From: Bacteroidota bacterium
Lineage (GTDB): Bacteria; Bacteroidota; Bacteroidia; Bacteroidales; GCA-2748055
Direction: 5' to 3'
Length of the DNA: 38,277 nucleotides
NCBI GenBank assembly: GCA_024244665.1
Contig: JAAEOI010000317.1
Location: 1-38,277, forward strand
Of this stretch, positions 2,376 to 34,339 are shown one piece after another. The position numbers were made by a program, and so were the translations under genes. The notes below the pieces were generated by a model. It searched no databases. It had not been told where the DNA came from and saw nothing but the letters and a program-made list of their open reading frames with translations. Numbering within the stretch: position 1 is the stretch's first letter; each line of letters starts with the position of its first letter.

Positions 2376-2990
2376 TTACGTATGTGATCCCAATGTAATA
2401 AAATCCTCTATTGTGGTAACCTGGAGCATGCTCAAAGGGCTGAAAAGGTCAAACCAGAACACTTCCCCGATCTCCTTCAGCCAGTCCACTAGGATCTCCG
2501 CCTCACGGGAGTCGTTCAATTGCTCCCAGTCGCCCGAGCTGGCAAGGAAGACATACTGGTACATATCCCTGTCAGAATCATAGAGGTAACATGATAGCAC
2601 AGAGCTGCCTGCATCGGCCATCACATTCTGTGATTTTAATATCTCGCCATCGGCTGCTCCCGGAATAAGGCCAACATAATGATCCAGATCATTGGCTTCA
2701 ATGCTCCCGATGAGTAATTCGGTTTGCGAAAGATTATGGATAAGATCCTCAGCGCTGATATACCCTGTGGAGTCGGGCAGCCTGAAATCGTCCGGGAGGT
2801 CATACCTTCGCACATCACCATCTGCATTAATAAGCCAGCCATGCTCCGAATACGACCATGCATAATTCACATAACGGTACTCAAAAAACACAGGTTGATC
2901 TTCGGGAGCCTCGTACTCCTTCTCACACCCCGCCAGCAGAAGCACTCCTGCCATTAACACAACTACCAATAATCTATATACCATTTCCAT
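2376..2990 (-). CDS. Small exported lipoprotein of unknown function
   Basis: The product is 204 residues and starts MEMVYRLLVVVLMAGVLLLAG, with a lipobox ending at Cys22 (LAGC) followed by EKEYEAPED. I do not recognise the mature domain; it is acidic and rich in Tyr and Trp, with the segment YRYVNYAWSYSEHGWLINADG near the N-terminus. The frame stays open upstream to 3305, but that extension would translate the heptanucleotide repeat and the antisense of the DUF5916 gene. The start at 2990 is preferred because it puts the signal peptide at the N-terminus and has an AGGA a few bases upstream. The repeat tract at 3001-3076 lies directly upstream, in the promoter or leader. Confidence 0.7.
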   Translation of the reverse strand: MEMVYRLLVVVLMAGVLLLAGCEKEYEAPEDQPVFFEYRYVNYAWSYSEHGWLINADGDVRRYDLPDDFRLPDSTGYISAEDLIHNLSQTELLIGSIEANDLDHYVGLIPGAADGEILKSQNVMADAGSSVLSCYLYDSDRDMYQYVFLASSGDWEQLNDSREAEILVDWLKEIGEVFWFDLFSPLSMLQVTTIEDFITLGSHT

Positions 2991-3000
2991 TTTTTTCCTA

Positions 3001-3076
3001 GGTACTGAGTACTGAGTACTGTCTACTGAGTACTGTGTACTGTCTACTGAGTACTGTCTACTGAGTACTGTGTACT
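3001..3076. repeat. Heptanucleotide tandem repeat, locus 1
   Basis: Read on the minus strand the tract is a run of 7-bp units: AGTACTC, AGTAGAC and AGTACAC, about eleven in a row. It sits between the divergent starts of the lipoprotein gene (2990) and the DUF5916 gene (3158). The same heptamer family recurs at 5388-5480 and, as 21-bp super-units, inside lysS at 28024-28138. There are no unique spacers, so it is not a CRISPR array. Confidence 0.9.
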
Positions 3077-3157
3077 GCAAAGATGCCTCTGGCATCGCCA
3101 TGGTTGCTTGGCTGGAGAACAAATTTACCGTAAATTGATGTCTTTCAATTAAACAGT

Positions 3158-5398
3158 TTGTCTTTGAATTACTTAACCCCAAGGTTCGTATTCTGTTCTC
3201 TCGGTTGTTTTCTCCTTCATACTGGGCTGTTCTCCCAGGAAAGGTGGGTGGTCCCCAGACTGGAATCAGATCTTGTATTTGACGGTGTTCCCGATGAGGC
3301 CGCATGGGAAAAGATCCAGGCCTTTCCCATGAGCACCTTTATTCCCACCTTCGGCCTGGAGCCTGAAGAGGAGTCTGTCATCAAACTTTCCTATGATGAT
3401 CAGTACCTCTATCTGGGAGGGATGATGTATGTTTCAGATCCGGATATGGTCAGGGCTTTTGGGAAAAAACGGGATCTGATCTCGGAGTCATGCGACTGGC
3501 TGGGAATCAGTATCGACTCCTATAACGACAAGGAGAATTCCCTGCTTTTCTTTACCAATCCCAATGGTATCAGAATGGATGGCACCATCATGAATGATGG
3601 TACCCCGGCGGGGGATATCGAACCCATAAACCTGAACTGGAACACCTTCTGGGATGTTAAATCATCCTACAACACCAGGGGCTGGTATACCGAGATAAGG
3701 ATCCCCCTCTCCAGTCTCAGGTTCCAGGAATCTGACAATAAGATCATCATGGGGATCAATGTGTTTCGATGGCTGCCGGCCAAAAACGAAGGATCCATTT
3801 ATCCCCGGACGCCCTATGACTGGGGACCCTATAGCAACATGAAACCTTCTGTTTATGCGGAAGTGGAGTTTGAGAACCTCCATCCAAAAAAACCCCTCTA
3901 CATCAACCCCTACCTGTTGGCCGGTTTTGACCAGTTCAATAAACTGAACAGCACTGAAACTTCATACGATTACTCGGAGGATATTATTTTTGAGCCCGGG
4001 CTCGATATCAAATACGGGATCAATCCGAATACAACGCTCGATCTGACATTCAATACCGACTTTGCGCAGGTGGAGGCTGATGATCAGCAATTCAACCTGA
4101 CCCGTTTCAGCTTGGTTTTCCCCGAGAAAAGACAGTTTTTCCTGGAACGGAGCAGTATTTTTGATTTTGGCCTGGGGGGCCCCAACAACCTCTTCTACAG
4201 CCGGCGGATAGGTTTGCATGAGGGTGAGCCGGTAAGAATATGGGGTGGAGCCAGGCTCAACAGCCGGGTAAAAGATTGGGACATTGGCCTCCTGAATTTA
4301 CAAACTGCATCACTGGATGAGCTCCCATCGGAAAATTTCGGAGCCTTCCGGGTAAAAAAGAGGATATTGAACGACTACTCCTATACCGGGGGTATGCTCA
4401 CCTCAAGGATCGGGGTGGACGGATCCTACAACATTGCCTATGGTCTTGATGCGGTACTCCGCCTGTTCGGGGACGATTACCTGACGGTGAGGTGGGCCCA
4501 GACCTTCAGCGACAGCACCAGAAACAACCCCCTGTCACTGGACCCCACCCGCTTCCTGGTCTCCTGGGAGAAAAGGAAGCAGGAGGGCTTTACCTATAAT
4601 CTCCTCTTCACCCGGTCGGGAACTGACTTTGAACCCGGGATCGGACTTGAAATCTTCCAGAACTATTATGCCAGTGCCGAAATCCTGAGTTACATGTGGA
4701 TCTCACCGGGAGAGTCGCCGCTGCAGGACCACAATATTTCACTCACCAATTATCATCTCAATGATGTAAGCAGCGGCAATCTGCTTACCTGGCGTTCAAG
4801 CCCGGGATGGACATTCACATCCAAGGGGGCCTGGACGGGATCCCTTACCCTGATCTACAATTATGAAAACCTGGTGGAGGATTTTGAGATCCTGGATCCG
4901 GTGGTGGTCCCCATCGGCAAATACCACTTTGTGAACACCAGCCTGATGCTTAAGACGCCCGGGAAGAATCAGGTGAGTGCACTTTTTTTATTCGAAGGGG
5001 GCGGGTTTTACGACGGACTTAAATTCTCTCCTTCGGTGGAGCCCTCCCTGAAATTTGGTGCTTCCCTTGAGTTGGGTGGAATATATCGCTTCGACCATGT
5101 GAGGTTCCCTGACCGAAACCAGTCTCTCAATAACCACATTGCCGGAGTCAGAGCCCTCTTTATGCTCTCAACAAAAATCTCCTTTTCTGCCTTCCTGCAG
5201 TACAATACTGCCATTGAGAAGGTGATAGCCAATTTTCGTTTCCGCTACAATCCGCGTGAAGGAACCGACCTCTACCTTGTCTATAACGAGGGACGCAACA
5301 CATACCTGCAACGGGAAACCCCCAATCTTCCACCCTACGATCAGCGAAACATCACACTTAAATTCAGCTACACCTTCAGACTCTCCCCTGAGTACTGA
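3158..5398 (+). CDS. DUF5916 outer-membrane protein with CBM9-like N-terminal domain
   Basis: The 746-residue product has a signal-peptide-like N-terminus (FCSLGCFLLHTGLFSQ). A CBM9/DOMON-like beta-sandwich follows (about residues 35-235, with FDGVPDEAAWEKI and WYTEIRIPLSSLRF), then the DUF5916 beta-barrel region. The diagnostic DUF5916 stretch is at about 300-333 (TDFAQVEADDQQFNLTRFS, then FPEKRQFFLE). The family is common in Bacteroidota and its function is unknown; an outer-membrane location is inferred from the C-terminal barrel pattern. No ATG is suitably placed: TTG at 3158 (or 3164) is the only start that keeps the signal peptide. The next in-frame ATG is about 60 residues in, inside the sandwich. 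The stop codon lies in the heptamer tract at the 3' end, so the last residues (PEY) are encoded by repeat DNA. Confidence 0.9.
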   Translation: MSLNYLTPRFVFCSLGCFLLHTGLFSQERWVVPRLESDLVFDGVPDEAAWEKIQAFPMSTFIPTFGLEPEEESVIKLSYDDQYLYLGGMMYVSDPDMVRAFGKKRDLISESCDWLGISIDSYNDKENSLLFFTNPNGIRMDGTIMNDGTPAGDIEPINLNWNTFWDVKSSYNTRGWYTEIRIPLSSLRFQESDNKIIMGINVFRWLPAKNEGSIYPRTPYDWGPYSNMKPSVYAEVEFENLHPKKPLYINPYLLAGFDQFNKLNSTETSYDYSEDIIFEPGLDIKYGINPNTTLDLTFNTDFAQVEADDQQFNLTRFSLVFPEKRQFFLERSSIFDFGLGGPNNLFYSRRIGLHEGEPVRIWGGARLNSRVKDWDIGLLNLQTASLDELPSENFGAFRVKKRILNDYSYTGGMLTSRIGVDGSYNIAYGLDAVLRLFGDDYLTVRWAQTFSDSTRNNPLSLDPTRFLVSWEKRKQEGFTYNLLFTRSGTDFEPGIGLEIFQNYYASAEILSYMWISPGESPLQDHNISLTNYHLNDVSSGNLLTWRSSPGWTFTSKGAWTGSLTLIYNYENLVEDFEILDPVVVPIGKYHFVNTSLMLKTPGKNQVSALFLFEGGGFYDGLKFSPSVEPSLKFGASLELGGIYRFDHVRFPDRNQSLNNHIAGVRALFMLSTKISFSAFLQYNTAIEKVIANFRFRYNPREGTDLYLVYNEGRNTYLQRETPNLPPYDQRNITLKFSYTFRLSPEY

Positions 5399-5480
5399 GT
5401 ACTGTCCACTGAGTACTGAGTACTGAGTACTGTCCACTGAGTACTGTCCACTGAGTACTGAGTTCTGAGTTCTGAGTTCT
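5388..5480. repeat. Heptanucleotide tandem repeat, locus 2
   Basis: On the minus strand the tract reads as thirteen consecutive 7-bp units: three AGAACTC, then AGTACTC alternating irregularly with AGTGGAC. It begins inside the last codons of the DUF5916 gene, supplies that gene's TGA stop, and runs up to the stop of the DUF4249 gene at 5479. With locus 1 it brackets the DUF5916 gene. The array differs in unit order from locus 1, so the two are not a simple recent duplication. Confidence 0.9.
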
Positions 5481-6318
5481 ATTTTAACACCACCGTATCA
5501 CGGATCACTTCGGCAGCGGTAAAGTATCCTATGGAACTCCCTGTCAGGTTGTTGCGTGCATTGCCCGGAAGAACGTCATAGACCCCGCCCCGCCAGTCGG
5601 TTTCGGAGAGCATACCCCGCAGAAACTCTTCATATTCCCGGGAGACCGACTCTTTTTCCCTGTAAACAATGGTTCCCGGGGGGAAACGGACGTGTTCCCG
5701 GTCGGGGGCAAAGATGTGATTTACATCCACAGATCCCAGAGTGTAATGATAGATCAGGGCGTGGGTATCTTCCGGGGGAAGGGTATCGTAGCCCGGCACA
5801 TGGCTCCAGTCCAGCTCCAAACGGATAACAGCCGGTCCGTTCTGATCGGTGATATGGACTTCATACAGGGGTGGATTCTCCTGCACCCGGAAGGGACGCA
5901 TGTTGGGAAAGGGCAACACCTCTCTCATAAATGCAATTGCAGTAATCCGCATCTCCCTGTACCGGATACGAAGCTGGTAACCCCTGTTTACCTCCCCGGC
6001 AAAACCGGGATCGGTCAGGTAGACCCCCGGCCGGGATGGATCCTCGGTGAGTGAATGGATCTCTCTTCCGTCATTGATGACAACCACTGCCCCCCTTACC
6101 GCTTCGGGCTGGGTATTGATTTCATAAACCGGCCATGTGAGGATCACCTCATGGGACTTCACTTCGTTTGTGATTTTCCCCTCCACCACCATTACATCCA
6201 CCTCCTGGTACTCAAGCTCCCAGCCGATCTTCTCGGTACAGGATCCTGCCAGGAGGAAAAGCAGCAGGGAAATTCCGGCTCGGCGAATCTTGAGAATATG
6301 TGGATCGGGCAGTTTCAT
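5479..6318 (-). CDS. DUF4249 family lipoprotein
   Basis: The 279-residue product has a lipobox signal peptide (hydrophobic LLLFLLAGS, Cys27) after a basic N-terminus. The mature part begins with VVEGKITNEVKSHEVILT and continues VRGAVVVINDG, the pattern of DUF4249, a Bacteroidota family usually encoded next to a TonB-dependent receptor. It starts 2 bp after the stop of the receptor gene (TGA-AC-ATG), so the two are surely cotranscribed. By analogy with neighbours of other receptors it may be a surface-exposed partner of the transporter, but the ligand is unknown. The family may extend somewhat further at the C-terminus; this copy ends near the repeat tract (RDTVVLK then stop), so a slight truncation is possible. 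Confidence 0.8.
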   Translation of the reverse strand: MKLPDPHILKIRRAGISLLLFLLAGSCTEKIGWELEYQEVDVMVVEGKITNEVKSHEVILTWPVYEINTQPEAVRGAVVVINDGREIHSLTEDPSRPGVYLTDPGFAGEVNRGYQLRIRYREMRITAIAFMREVLPFPNMRPFRVQENPPLYEVHITDQNGPAVIRLELDWSHVPGYDTLPPEDTHALIYHYTLGSVDVNHIFAPDREHVRFPPGTIVYREKESVSREYEEFLRGMLSETDWRGGVYDVLPGNARNNLTGSSIGYFTAAEVIRDTVVLK

Positions 6319-26508: not shown

Positions 26509-28314
26509 ATGCACCATCCCGAACTCAGCGAACAGGAACAAATCAGGAGAAATTCCCTGGAAGAGATAAGAAAACTGGGTCACGATCCCTACCCCCCTGA
26601 ATTATACGAGGTTAGTCACAAAGCAGCTGAAATAAAGTCTCTCTTCGCAGAGCAGGAGGATCAGTTACAGGAAATCTCCCTGGCAGGAAGAATCATGAGC
26701 CGGCGGATCATGGGGAAAGCCTCATTCGCAGAGATCCAGGACTCCTCGGGAAGGATCCAGATCTACCTGAACAGAGATGAACTCTGTCCGGACGAAGATA
26801 AGACCCTTTACAACACCATCTTCAAGAAGCTGTTGGATATAGGCGATATTATCGGGGTCAAAGGTAAAGCCTTCCGCACCCAGGTCGGTGAGATCTCGGT
26901 GCATGTGAATGAGCTGACCATCCTGAGCAAATCCATCAGGCCCCTCCCCATTGTCAAAGAGGCCGACGGCAAGGTATATGATGCGGTTACCGATGCCGAA
27001 TTCCGTTACCGCCAGCGCTATGTAGACCTGATTGTCAATCCCGAATCGAGAGAGCTGTTCAGGAAGCGCACCCAGGTATACACTACCCTGAGGAACCTTT
27101 TCAATGAAAAAGGCTACCTGGAGGTGGAAACCCCCGTCCTTCAGCCCATCCCGGGAGGTGCAGCTGCCAGGCCCTTCATAACCCACCACAACTCCCTGGA
27201 TATGCCGCTCTACCTGCGAATTGCCAATGAGCTCTATCTCAAAAGGCTGATCGTAGGCGGTTACGATGGGGTATACGAATTCTCGAAGGACTTCAGGAAC
27301 GAGGGGATGGACCGGACCCACAACCCGGAATTCACCGTGATGGAAATCTATGTTGCCTACAAGGACTACAACTGGATGATGGACTTCACAGAGGAGATGA
27401 TCGAAAAGGTTGCCCTCGACCTGCACGGAACCACCAAAGTGATGGTGGGTGACCAGCAGATCGATTTCAAGCGTCCCTTCAAACGGATTTCGATGCTTGA
27501 TGCCATCAAAGAGAGTACCGGGTTTGACATTGCAGGGATGGATGAAGCCGGCCTGAGGAATGTGGCCTCCTGCCTGGAAGTGGCACTGGATGACTCCATG
27601 GGCAAAGGCAAGATCATCGATGAGATCTTCGGCGAAAAGGCGGAGGTCCACATGATCCAGCCCACCTTTATCACCGACTACCCCGTGGAGATGTCGCCCC
27701 TGTGCAAGAAGCACCGCGACAACCCTGAGCTCACCGAAAGGTTCGAACTGATGGTGAACGGCAAAGAACTCTGCAACGCCTACACCGAACTGAACGACCC
27801 TATCGACCAACTGGAACGGTTCCAGGACCAGCTCAAACTCTCCGAAAAAGGAGACGACGAAGCAATGTTCATCGACATGGACTTTGTCCGCGCCCTCGAG
27901 TACGGCATGCCTCCCACATCAGGAATGGGAATGGGCATAGACCGACTGGTGATGCTCATGACCAACCAGACCTCCATCCAGGAAGTCCTCTTCTTCCCGC
28001 AGATGCGACCAGAGGTCGCAGCCAGTACTCAGTCCTCAGAAGACAGTGCACAGTCCTCAGAAGACAGTACTCAGTCCTCAGAAGACAGTACTCAGTCCTC
28101 AGTGGACAGTGCTCAGGAGACAGTGGACAGTACTCAGGAAGAAAAGGTGGTATTGAATCTTTTGAAAGAGAAGTCACCAGTTGACCTGAACTCGCTGAAA
28201 GAACAAACCGGACTAAGTAACAAAAAGTGGGACAAGGCCATAAAAGGCCTTACAAAAAACAAAGTTGCCAGGGTAGAAAAAACGGATGCGGGCCTTCTTG
28301 TTTCGCTGGTATAA
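26509..28314 (+). CDS. lysS: Lysyl-tRNA synthetase (class II) with repeat linker and winged-helix-like tail
   Basis: The 601-residue product has the OB-fold anticodon-binding domain (about 55-160, [20 protein letters not shown]) and the class II catalytic domain (about 180-505). Motif 2 is [20 protein letters not shown] and motif 3 is [18 protein letters not shown]. The usual enzyme ends near FFPQMRPE (about residue 503). Here the frame continues through a linker of seven-residue repeats ([21 protein letters not shown]; about 506-543) encoded by the genome's heptanucleotide repeat, and then through about 55 residues resembling a winged helix ([39 protein letters not shown]). The core is certain; the tail's role is unknown. 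Homopolymeric Ser/Thr/Gln/Asp content and the uniform 21-bp period suggest repeat expansion within the gene. Confidence 0.95.
28024..28138. repeat. Heptanucleotide repeat in 21-bp super-units, inside lysS
   Basis: Five 21-bp units plus a partial sixth begin AGTACTC or AGTGCAC, continue AGTCCTC and end AGAAGAC or AGTGGAC. Each unit is three heptamers and encodes seven residues, so any whole-unit change keeps the lysS frame. The heptamers AGTACTC and AGTGGAC are identical to those of loci 1 and 2 read on the minus strand. Confidence 0.9.
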
Positions 28315-33715: not shown

Positions 33716-34339
33716 ATGAAAATATTTGTCATGAGATTGAATAAAAAATATTTGACTTTAGTATTCGTTTTTTGTGCTGCAGTTTGTACATTCTCATATT
33801 CCCAGGAAACTGGTTCTTTTACCGATAGCAGGGATGGCCATGAATACAAAATCGTAAAAATTGGGGATCAGTGGTGGATGAGTGAAAATATGGCTTATAA
33901 AACCGACAGTGATTGTTGGGTTTATGAGGGTATTGAAGGATATGCAGAGACCTATGGTTATCTCTATTCGTGGGAAGCAGCCAAAGATGTATGTCCTGAT
34001 GGATGGCACCTTCCAACTGATGCTGAATTTGTTATACTTTGGGGATTTCTGGGAGGATCCGAGACAGATGGAGGTAAATTAAAAGAAACCGGAACAGATC
34101 ATTGGAATAGTCCAAATACAGGGGCCACAAATTCCAGTGGATTCACGGCCTTATCCAGCGGAACAAGTGGTGATAATGAACATAAAATGTATTTAGGAAT
34201 AATAACTTATTTCTGGACTTCAGAAGACCTTGATGACGATACAGGGGATTCATGGGCATTATATTCAGCCATAGCAGAATTTACTCGATACGGCCTGCCA
34301 AAGGGAGACGGTGTTTCGGTTCGCTGTCTTAAGGATTAG
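33716..34339 (+). CDS. FISUMP-domain secreted protein
   Basis: The 207-residue product has a signal peptide (about 8-28, KYLTLVFVFCAAVCTFSYS). A single FISUMP (Fibrobacter succinogenes major paralogous) domain follows: DSRDGHEYKIVKIGDQWWMS, ENMAYKTDS, YGYLYSWEAAKDVCPDGWHL, the LPTDAEF segment and a C-terminal VSVRCLKD. The domain is common in secreted Bacteroidota and Fibrobacter proteins and is of unknown function, perhaps surface adhesion or binding. The start may be 33716 or the ATG five codons on. It ends at TAG 34337; the same frame then stays open for 51 more codons (see the next entry). Confidence 0.9.
   Translation: MKIFVMRLNKKYLTLVFVFCAAVCTFSYSQETGSFTDSRDGHEYKIVKIGDQWWMSENMAYKTDSDCWVYEGIEGYAETYGYLYSWEAAKDVCPDGWHLPTDAEFVILWGFLGGSETDGGKLKETGTDHWNSPNTGATNSSGFTALSSGTSGDNEHKMYLGIITYFWTSEDLDDDTGDSWALYSAIAEFTRYGLPKGDGVSVRCLKD

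Follow-up and report, generated by a model that had tools for sequence, protein, structure and literature searches.

Results

An in-frame heptamer array in lysS

The window, that is, the whole stretch of 38,277 nt from a Bacteroidota bacterium analyzed here, contains a lysS gene with an in-frame heptamer array, two further heptamer arrays, and a fragment of a second type of LysS C-terminal domain (Table 1).

Table 1. Coordinates of the features discussed in the text (positions in the window)
Feature	Position	Strand	Basis
Heptamer array, 11 CAGTNNN units	3001–3077	−	Repeat search
Intergenic heptamer array, 13 units	5384–5474	−	Repeat search
lysS, class II lysyl-tRNA synthetase, 601 aa	26509–28314	+	ORF and Pfam
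In-frame heptamer array in lysS, 17 CAGNNNN units, residues 505–545	28023–28141	+	Repeat search
LysS C-terminal domain, predicted winged helix	28138–28311	+	AlphaFold, Foldseek
DUF4332-like LysS C-terminal domain fragment, 27 aa	34373–34453	+	tblastn, E 2.7e-11, 67% identity to P0144

According to Pfam, LysS comprises an OB fold (residues 57–139) and the catalytic tRNA-synt_2 domain (residues 163–499), and the array is located between the end of this catalytic core and the predicted winged-helix domain. All 17 units are contiguous, lie inside the 601-codon frame, and are free of stop codons. CAGTACT and CAGTCCT occur four times each, CAGAAGA three times, CAGTGGA twice, and CAGTGCA, CAGTGCT, CAGGAGA, and CAGGAAG once each. 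TRF detected a period of 21 bp, equivalent to a super-unit of seven codons (87% matches, 5.5 copies, 28023–28137), as well as a period of 7 bp with 64% matches (28023–28103). The in-frame array, which the original prediction had placed at residues 506–543 (28024–28138), is confirmed, and its bounds were correct within a few bases.

In an AlphaFold model of full-length LysS, based on 50 aligned sequences, the pLDDT was below 50 for residues 495–538, whereas the C-terminal domain scored about 86. Because this alignment is shallow, the model is weak for much of the LysS core, and it was used for the linker and the C-terminal domain only. When modeled alone (52 aligned domains), the C-terminal domain reached a pLDDT of 89.8, with the order helix-helix-helix-strand-strand. 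The top matches of a Foldseek search against the PDB were MarR-type and Z-alpha winged helices, with a best E-value of 1.7e-3 and no match at E ≤ 1e-3; the C-terminal ~58 residues matched no Pfam family above the cut-off. On the basis of these models, the domain is predicted to be a winged helix. The array most likely acts as a passive flexible tether, with no indication of a regulatory or catalytic function.

Heptamer arrays elsewhere in the window

The array at 3001–3077 directly precedes the likely start of a small lipoprotein-like gene (MEMVYRLL...) and lies inside a longer mechanical ORF (2376–3305). The array at 5384–5474 spans the entire interval between two convergent genes and starts 4 nt past the stop codon of the co-oriented gene 5479–6318(−), which has a DUF4249 domain (Pfam). 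It also overlaps the last 15 nt, including the stop codon, of a plus-strand ORF that ends at 5398. A pattern of five CAGNNNN units followed by CAG matched 26 times in the window, always within the three arrays, and was absent from 100 dinucleotide shuffles. Likewise, the 17-mer CAGTGGACAGTACTCAG has one copy in lysS and three in the 5384–5474 array and did not occur in 100 shuffles. Three units had been claimed to be common to lysS and both other tracts; this holds for AGTACTC, whereas AGTGGAC is found in only one of them (5384–5474) and AGTCCTC in neither. Of the three arrays, only that in lysS contains CAGTCCT and CAGAAGA. The higher period detected by TRF was 28 bp (93%) in the 5384–5474 array and 21 bp also in the 3001–3077 array. 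Only the period of 21 preserves a reading frame, an anecdotal observation given the three arrays.

Judging from the sequences, we consider it quite likely that the lysS linker is an in-frame piece of a regionally dispersed CAGTNNN repeat, located in the disordered joint between the core, which ends at FPQM, and the C-terminal domain. Alternatively, it could be a convergent low-complexity linker, in which case local slippage would have generated the 21-bp units under selection for Ser/Thr/Gln/Glu/Asp, without any relation to the genomic repeat. The 21-bp super-unit was clearly duplicated locally, and CAGTCCT and CAGAAGA are missing from the other two arrays, both of which would fit such an origin. 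However, the exact 17-mer common to lysS and an intergenic array argues against it, as do the two results on relatives described below, and we regard convergence as unlikely.

Linker repeats and genomic repeats in the closest family

An order-wide search of 393 genomes reached 28 genomes of the closest family, and lysS was matched at E ≤ 1e-230 in 16 of these. These relatives, and not the window's own genome, are the basis of the genome-wide repeat comparison. The linkers of all 16 matched genes were read from the DNA. CAGT heptamer linkers are present in G539 and G503, GGRGACNN octamer linkers in G361 and G441, and other inserts in G538 and G540; five genomes have plain winged-helix linkers (G529, G530, G536, G537, and G550), and five have short linkers preceding a DUF4332-type domain (G147, G264, G531, G533, and G546). 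Among close relatives, the linker is therefore hypervariable in length and content, and only 4 of the 16 linkers consist of tandem repeats.

The CAGTNNN pattern, counted as overlapping matches with lysS included, was found in 9 of the 28 genomes. Within the set of 16, the two genomes with heptamer linkers had the highest counts (G503, 259; G539, 40), followed by G441 with 7 matches; G547, in which lysS was unmatched, had 30. A reversed control pattern matched in 4 of the 28 genomes, chiefly in G503, and these 49 matches indicate that G503 has a second heptamer family too. The octamer was confined to 2 of the 28 genomes, G441 and G361, exactly those with octamer linkers, and its control had no match; outside lysS it occupies seven places in G441 and one in G361. 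If two of 16 genomes were drawn randomly, each of these coincidences between linker and genome would have a chance of 1 in 120 (calculated by hand), with two genomes per repeat class underlying the match. The octamer linker encodes Gly/Arg/Glu/Asp, unlike the heptamer linker. That the linker class tracks the genome class even for an octamer of such different residues is difficult to reconcile with a convergent linker. The original prediction had named a conserved linker protein, combined with absence of the heptamers elsewhere, as the mark of an ordinary linker; as far as testable, the variable linkers and the dispersed heptamers contradict this.

Two candidate repeats were not retained. A heptamer GGRGACN for the linkers of G361 and G441 was rejected, as only G503 matched, with two matches vs. 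two of the reversed control, and the period is 8. The palindromic linker element of G538 and G441 is rare, with one copy in each of 4 of the 28 genomes, and for this reason it was not counted as a dispersed repeat.

As the window record is possibly metagenomic, a repeat collapse or a chimera might have put heptamers into lysS during assembly. However, the array is short (119 bp), the frame is intact, and in-frame repeats are found at the same joint in the independent assemblies of G539, G503, G361, and G441, so that an artefact of this kind is extremely improbable.

Genomic positions of heptamer arrays

In addition to the three arrays in the 38-kb window, 18 pattern-matched heptamer places are present in the relative G539. 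All 18 were fetched; 17 are intergenic and one is lysS. For the closest family as a whole, 40 of the 41 sampled arrays were intergenic, the exception being lysS. The sample comprised the 18 places of G539, 10 arrays in nine regions of G503, 11 of the 13 places listed for G547, and one array each from G530 and G550; genes were called as ORFs of at least 100 aa, and a few arrays lay in ORFs of 91–119 aa that were deemed spurious. Among the non-lysS arrays with a known 5′ neighbor (n = 38), 32 are located behind a co-oriented gene, and 24 lie within 10 nt of its stop codon or overlap it. An oppositely oriented stop codon within 10 nt was found for only 2 of the 38.

In a neighboring family, that of G001, 40 regions were analyzed. 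Here, the end of a co-oriented gene was again favored within 10 nt (14 vs. 3), with no overall bias toward a co-oriented 5′ neighbor (21 of 39). Seemingly genic arrays (L245 twice, L248, and L255) were judged spurious and excluded from the position counts; in L245, 393 codons stay open across a repeat cluster, and the other frames span 95–134 codons. A lysS match was obtained for 130 of the 140 genomes of this family, and 30 loci were kept. All 30 retrieved loci have plain or short linkers, although the CAGT pattern occurs in 51 of the 140 genomes (e.g., G120, 52 matches), and thus the joint is not targeted universally. The reversed control was found in about 49 of the 140 genomes (hand count), so that heptamer families other than CAGTNNN are equally common in this family. 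Because it matches so many genomes, other heptamer families must exist, and CAGTNNN is not the sole one.

Many genomes contain separate arrays of the reversed motif, TGACNNN. Genomes also favor their own CAGTNNN dialects, such as CAGTCGG/GGG, CAGTAAG/AGG, CAGTGTT, CAGTAAC, CAGTATC, and CAGTTTT (G503, G547, and the family of G001), and the dialect of G547 consists mostly of stop-bearing units (51 of 65 sampled).

The lysS array differs from other arrays in its coding properties. In the frame used, the hydrophobic fraction is 0.05, compared with 0.36 and 0.33 for the two alternative frames and 0.24–0.36 in the other arrays of the window. Units that bear a stop codon in any frame are absent from the lysS array (0 of 17), account for 3 of the 11 units at 3001–3077, and are also absent from the 13 units at 5384–5474. 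In G539, 0 of 7 units in the fetched lysS array vs. 15 of 101 elsewhere are stop-bearing, and in the sampled arrays of G503 only 5 of 109. Because the 5384–5474 array and nearly all units of G503 lack stop codons as well, the stop-free lysS array is weak evidence, and filtering of the array, either once it was established or while this happened, is better indicated by the hydrophilic frame.

Periodicity and phylogeny of LysS linkers

Long linkers, defined as those of 26 aa or more among 152 winged-helix LysS tails, were collected from two protein searches, the window, and 22 loci; as one query contained the linker of the window, the set favors linkers like it. For the 50 unique long linkers, the identity at a lag of seven residues was strongly raised (z = 15.3), as was that at lag 14 (z = 11.0), while lags 3, 5, and 8 were raised less (z 2.6–3.3). 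After removal of the CAGT class, the values of the remaining 36 linkers at lags 7, 8, and 14 were reached by none of 300 shuffles. Selection for composition gives no reason for a 7-residue repeat, and with this widespread periodicity the convergent linker is already largely refuted. Because the linker type follows the genome type, the linkers have a lag-7 periodicity, and all arrays of G539 but that in lysS are intergenic, we conclude that the joint accepts genomic repeats in frame, though not in every family.

A FastTree phylogeny of 182 LysS cores was constructed, in which 62 of the 167 inner branches were starred. It implies at least 16 switches between linkers with and without repeats, based on classes of the P proteins that were hand-assigned from amino acids without DNA, with P0141 and P0148 left out. 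The type of the C-terminal domain switched at least 19 times (152 winged-helix and 25 DUF4332-type proteins, five untyped proteins being left out).

C-terminal domain types and probable displaced tails

The LysS tails belong to two unrelated types, the winged helix and a DUF4332-like domain (a sub-threshold assignment, E 5e-4). Different domains can follow nearly identical cores, as in the pairs P0124/P0153 (100% over 499 aa), P0024/P0145, and P0122/P0138 (both 99.8%). Such pairs, together with the domain-type switches on the core tree, raise the possibility of repeated insertions at the FPQM codons, by integrative elements or illegitimate recombination, that supply a new linker and domain and shift the old tail downstream. 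The linker repeats would be imported or trapped in such events, and this scenario is thus compatible with their origin from a dispersed genomic repeat, to which it would add a cause. It should be noted that the pairs are metagenome proteins and may include chimeric assemblies.

Displaced domains were searched with tblastn at 186 lysS loci, some from one genome and some with a single flank, using 265 domain queries and a database size set to 20 kb. Matches with E-values from 1e-5 to 1e-3, which occurred on both sides and both strands (including 35068 and 36150 in the window), were dropped as chance level. At E < 1e-5, 11 extra domain copies were found at seven lysS loci, all of them downstream on the same strand, as displacement of old tails would predict; however, for two of the seven loci (L274 and L279, four copies) the downstream side only was searched, and for the other five both sides. 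The window contributes one of these fragments, located 6.06 kb downstream of lysS and 33 nt past the stop codon of the ORF 33716–34339. As a DUF4332-like fragment behind a winged-helix-type lysS, it is a probable displaced old tail. In G531, a copy of 58 residues that looks intact is located 2.1 kb behind lysS. A search of the whole family revealed additional copies, located on other contigs or, in one case in G441, upstream of lysS. The notion that displaced copies are always located downstream of lysS was therefore rejected, and displacement is not the only possible history. At the locus L069, three LysS tail-end copies follow behind lysS (4012, 4668, and 5404) with a spacing of about 0.7 kb, and two of them overlap the ends of small lipoprotein-like genes.

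In three displaced tails, the sequence starts at the FPQM codons, TTYCCGCARATGAAACC, without a core ahead, as expected if these codons were the insertion site. Two of them are located on contig C472 of G531 (L330, at 4003 and 6257) and have no mismatch to the degenerate motif, and the third, in G147 (L279, at 6098), has two. The latter, read in the orientation of lysS, retains a decayed heptamer linker, in a genome without any match of the CAGT pattern. Further matches of the FPQM motif, in L313, where lysS is cut by the contig start, and in the unrelated L288, were dropped. The tails at 4003–4324 and 6257–6576 of L330 sit in 323-bp repeats that are 85% identical. However, the other displaced fragments, including that of the window, have no FPQM start. 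In addition, Phage_integrase (PF00589) had no match on the contigs searched in four genomes (G531 C447/C472, G147 C52, G441 C47, and G538 C312), and the genes between lysS and the displaced tails are ordinary-looking, e.g., a glutamine synthetase-like gene in L279. Taking both sides into account, we give repeated insertion at the FPQM codons a nearly even chance.

Discussion

Dispersed heptamer families are familiar from the cyanobacterial STRR, whose unit sequence probably differs from that of the window repeat. In Bacteroidetes they are not new either. A study by MacGregor (2015; PMC4679880) describes dispersed TAACTGA heptamers in Beggiatoaceae, Cyanobacteria, and five Bacteroidetes, mostly intergenic, with some inside ORFs near protein ends; there, two Cyanothece strains differ mostly in 7-nt steps. 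Thus, for the original prediction, linker DNA that derives in frame from a heptamer family dispersed in the window is upheld, while the claim of a novel counterpart in Bacteroidota is not. On the opposite strand, TAACTGA reads TCAGTTA and shares the CAGTNNN frame of the window (PMC4679880). The dialect of the window is CAGTACT/GGA/AGA/ACA, unlike the CAGTTA of MacGregor, and no CAGTTA unit is present among the 41 units of its three arrays; some relatives do have CAGTTAA or CAGTTAT units. In the BOGUAY genome, the TAACTGA repeats are located just upstream of start codons (PMC4679880), whereas most sampled arrays of the closest family are found 3′ of stop codons in sense orientation. A further difference is that the genic array analyzed here belongs to an essential synthetase and is followed by a folded domain (compare PMC4679880).

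Positional preferences of this kind are known as well. According to a report on Xanthomonas and Nostoc (PMC4692102), G-rich heptamers are under-represented in coding sequences; on the sense strand they cluster no more than 50 bp from stop codons, some overlapping the stop, and they also occur upstream of ORFs on the antisense strand. The placement of arrays behind stop codons is therefore not a new rule. Those units (GGGAATC and GGGGAYT) form G-quadruplexes, whereas CAGTNNN is not G-rich (PMC4692102). In the window, the array at 3001–3077 is an exception to the placement behind stops, as it precedes a likely start.

The history of the lysS array may have been as follows. The array would have entered, or been seeded at, the joint, which no fold crosses and which can vary in length provided that the frame is maintained. 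It would then have expanded by duplications of 21 bp (seven codons), while hydrophobic (and stop-bearing) units would have been eliminated by selection. In this lineage, the 3′ end of lysS seems to have been replaced repeatedly, so that the joint may have been rebuilt, and repeats gained and lost, alongside. Two observations go beyond the original prediction: octamers and palindromic elements can occupy the linker as well, and exchange also affects the domain that follows it.

Rhs/CDI proteins have a constant core, an exchangeable C-terminal part, and displaced orphan tips downstream. The likeness to lysS is an analogy only, as lysS encodes a housekeeping enzyme and has neither a toxin nor an immunity gene. 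The 3′ end of lysS in Firmicutes is a known site of integration, which is in line with insertion at the FPQM codons. Enterococcal vanD islands have the direct repeat TTCCCAACAATGA in the lysS 3′ end (PMC8301612), and streptococcal ICEs target the same gene end (PMC4701971). The islands break at the same codons, with TTCCCAACAATGA there and TTYCCGCARATGAA here. In the Firmicutes few codons are involved, since the gene end coincides with the repeat or is 17 bp away from it (PMC8301612, PMC4701971); in the lineage analyzed here, in contrast, a whole 60-residue domain and the linker are replaced, and no integrase was found nearby. Among the titles and abstract beginnings of one open-access library, searches on C-terminal extensions of Bacteroidetes lysS, heptamer-built synthetase linkers, in-frame palindromic repeats, and displaced lysS domains yielded no description of the lysS case. 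A strain pair of one species with an empty and a filled site was not found, and a selfish-type nature of the repeat, as suggested in the original prediction, is at most putative. As a tentative and somewhat doubtful generalization, the lysS 3′ end could be a standing exchange joint that breaks and rejoins at FPQM, swaps its domain between two folds, sheds tails downstream, and takes up the genome's own repeat, whether heptamer, octamer, or palindrome, as an in-frame splice.

Within one family, in-frame short tandem repeats in the LysS joint are recurrent and follow the repeat type of the genome. Genomic micro-repeats thereby become part of an essential and strongly conserved enzyme, and an origin of disordered linkers from non-coding repeats can thus be tested directly by comparing sequences. 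The exchange of domains behind the joint, if true, would represent an unusual modular evolution in an aminoacyl-tRNA synthetase.
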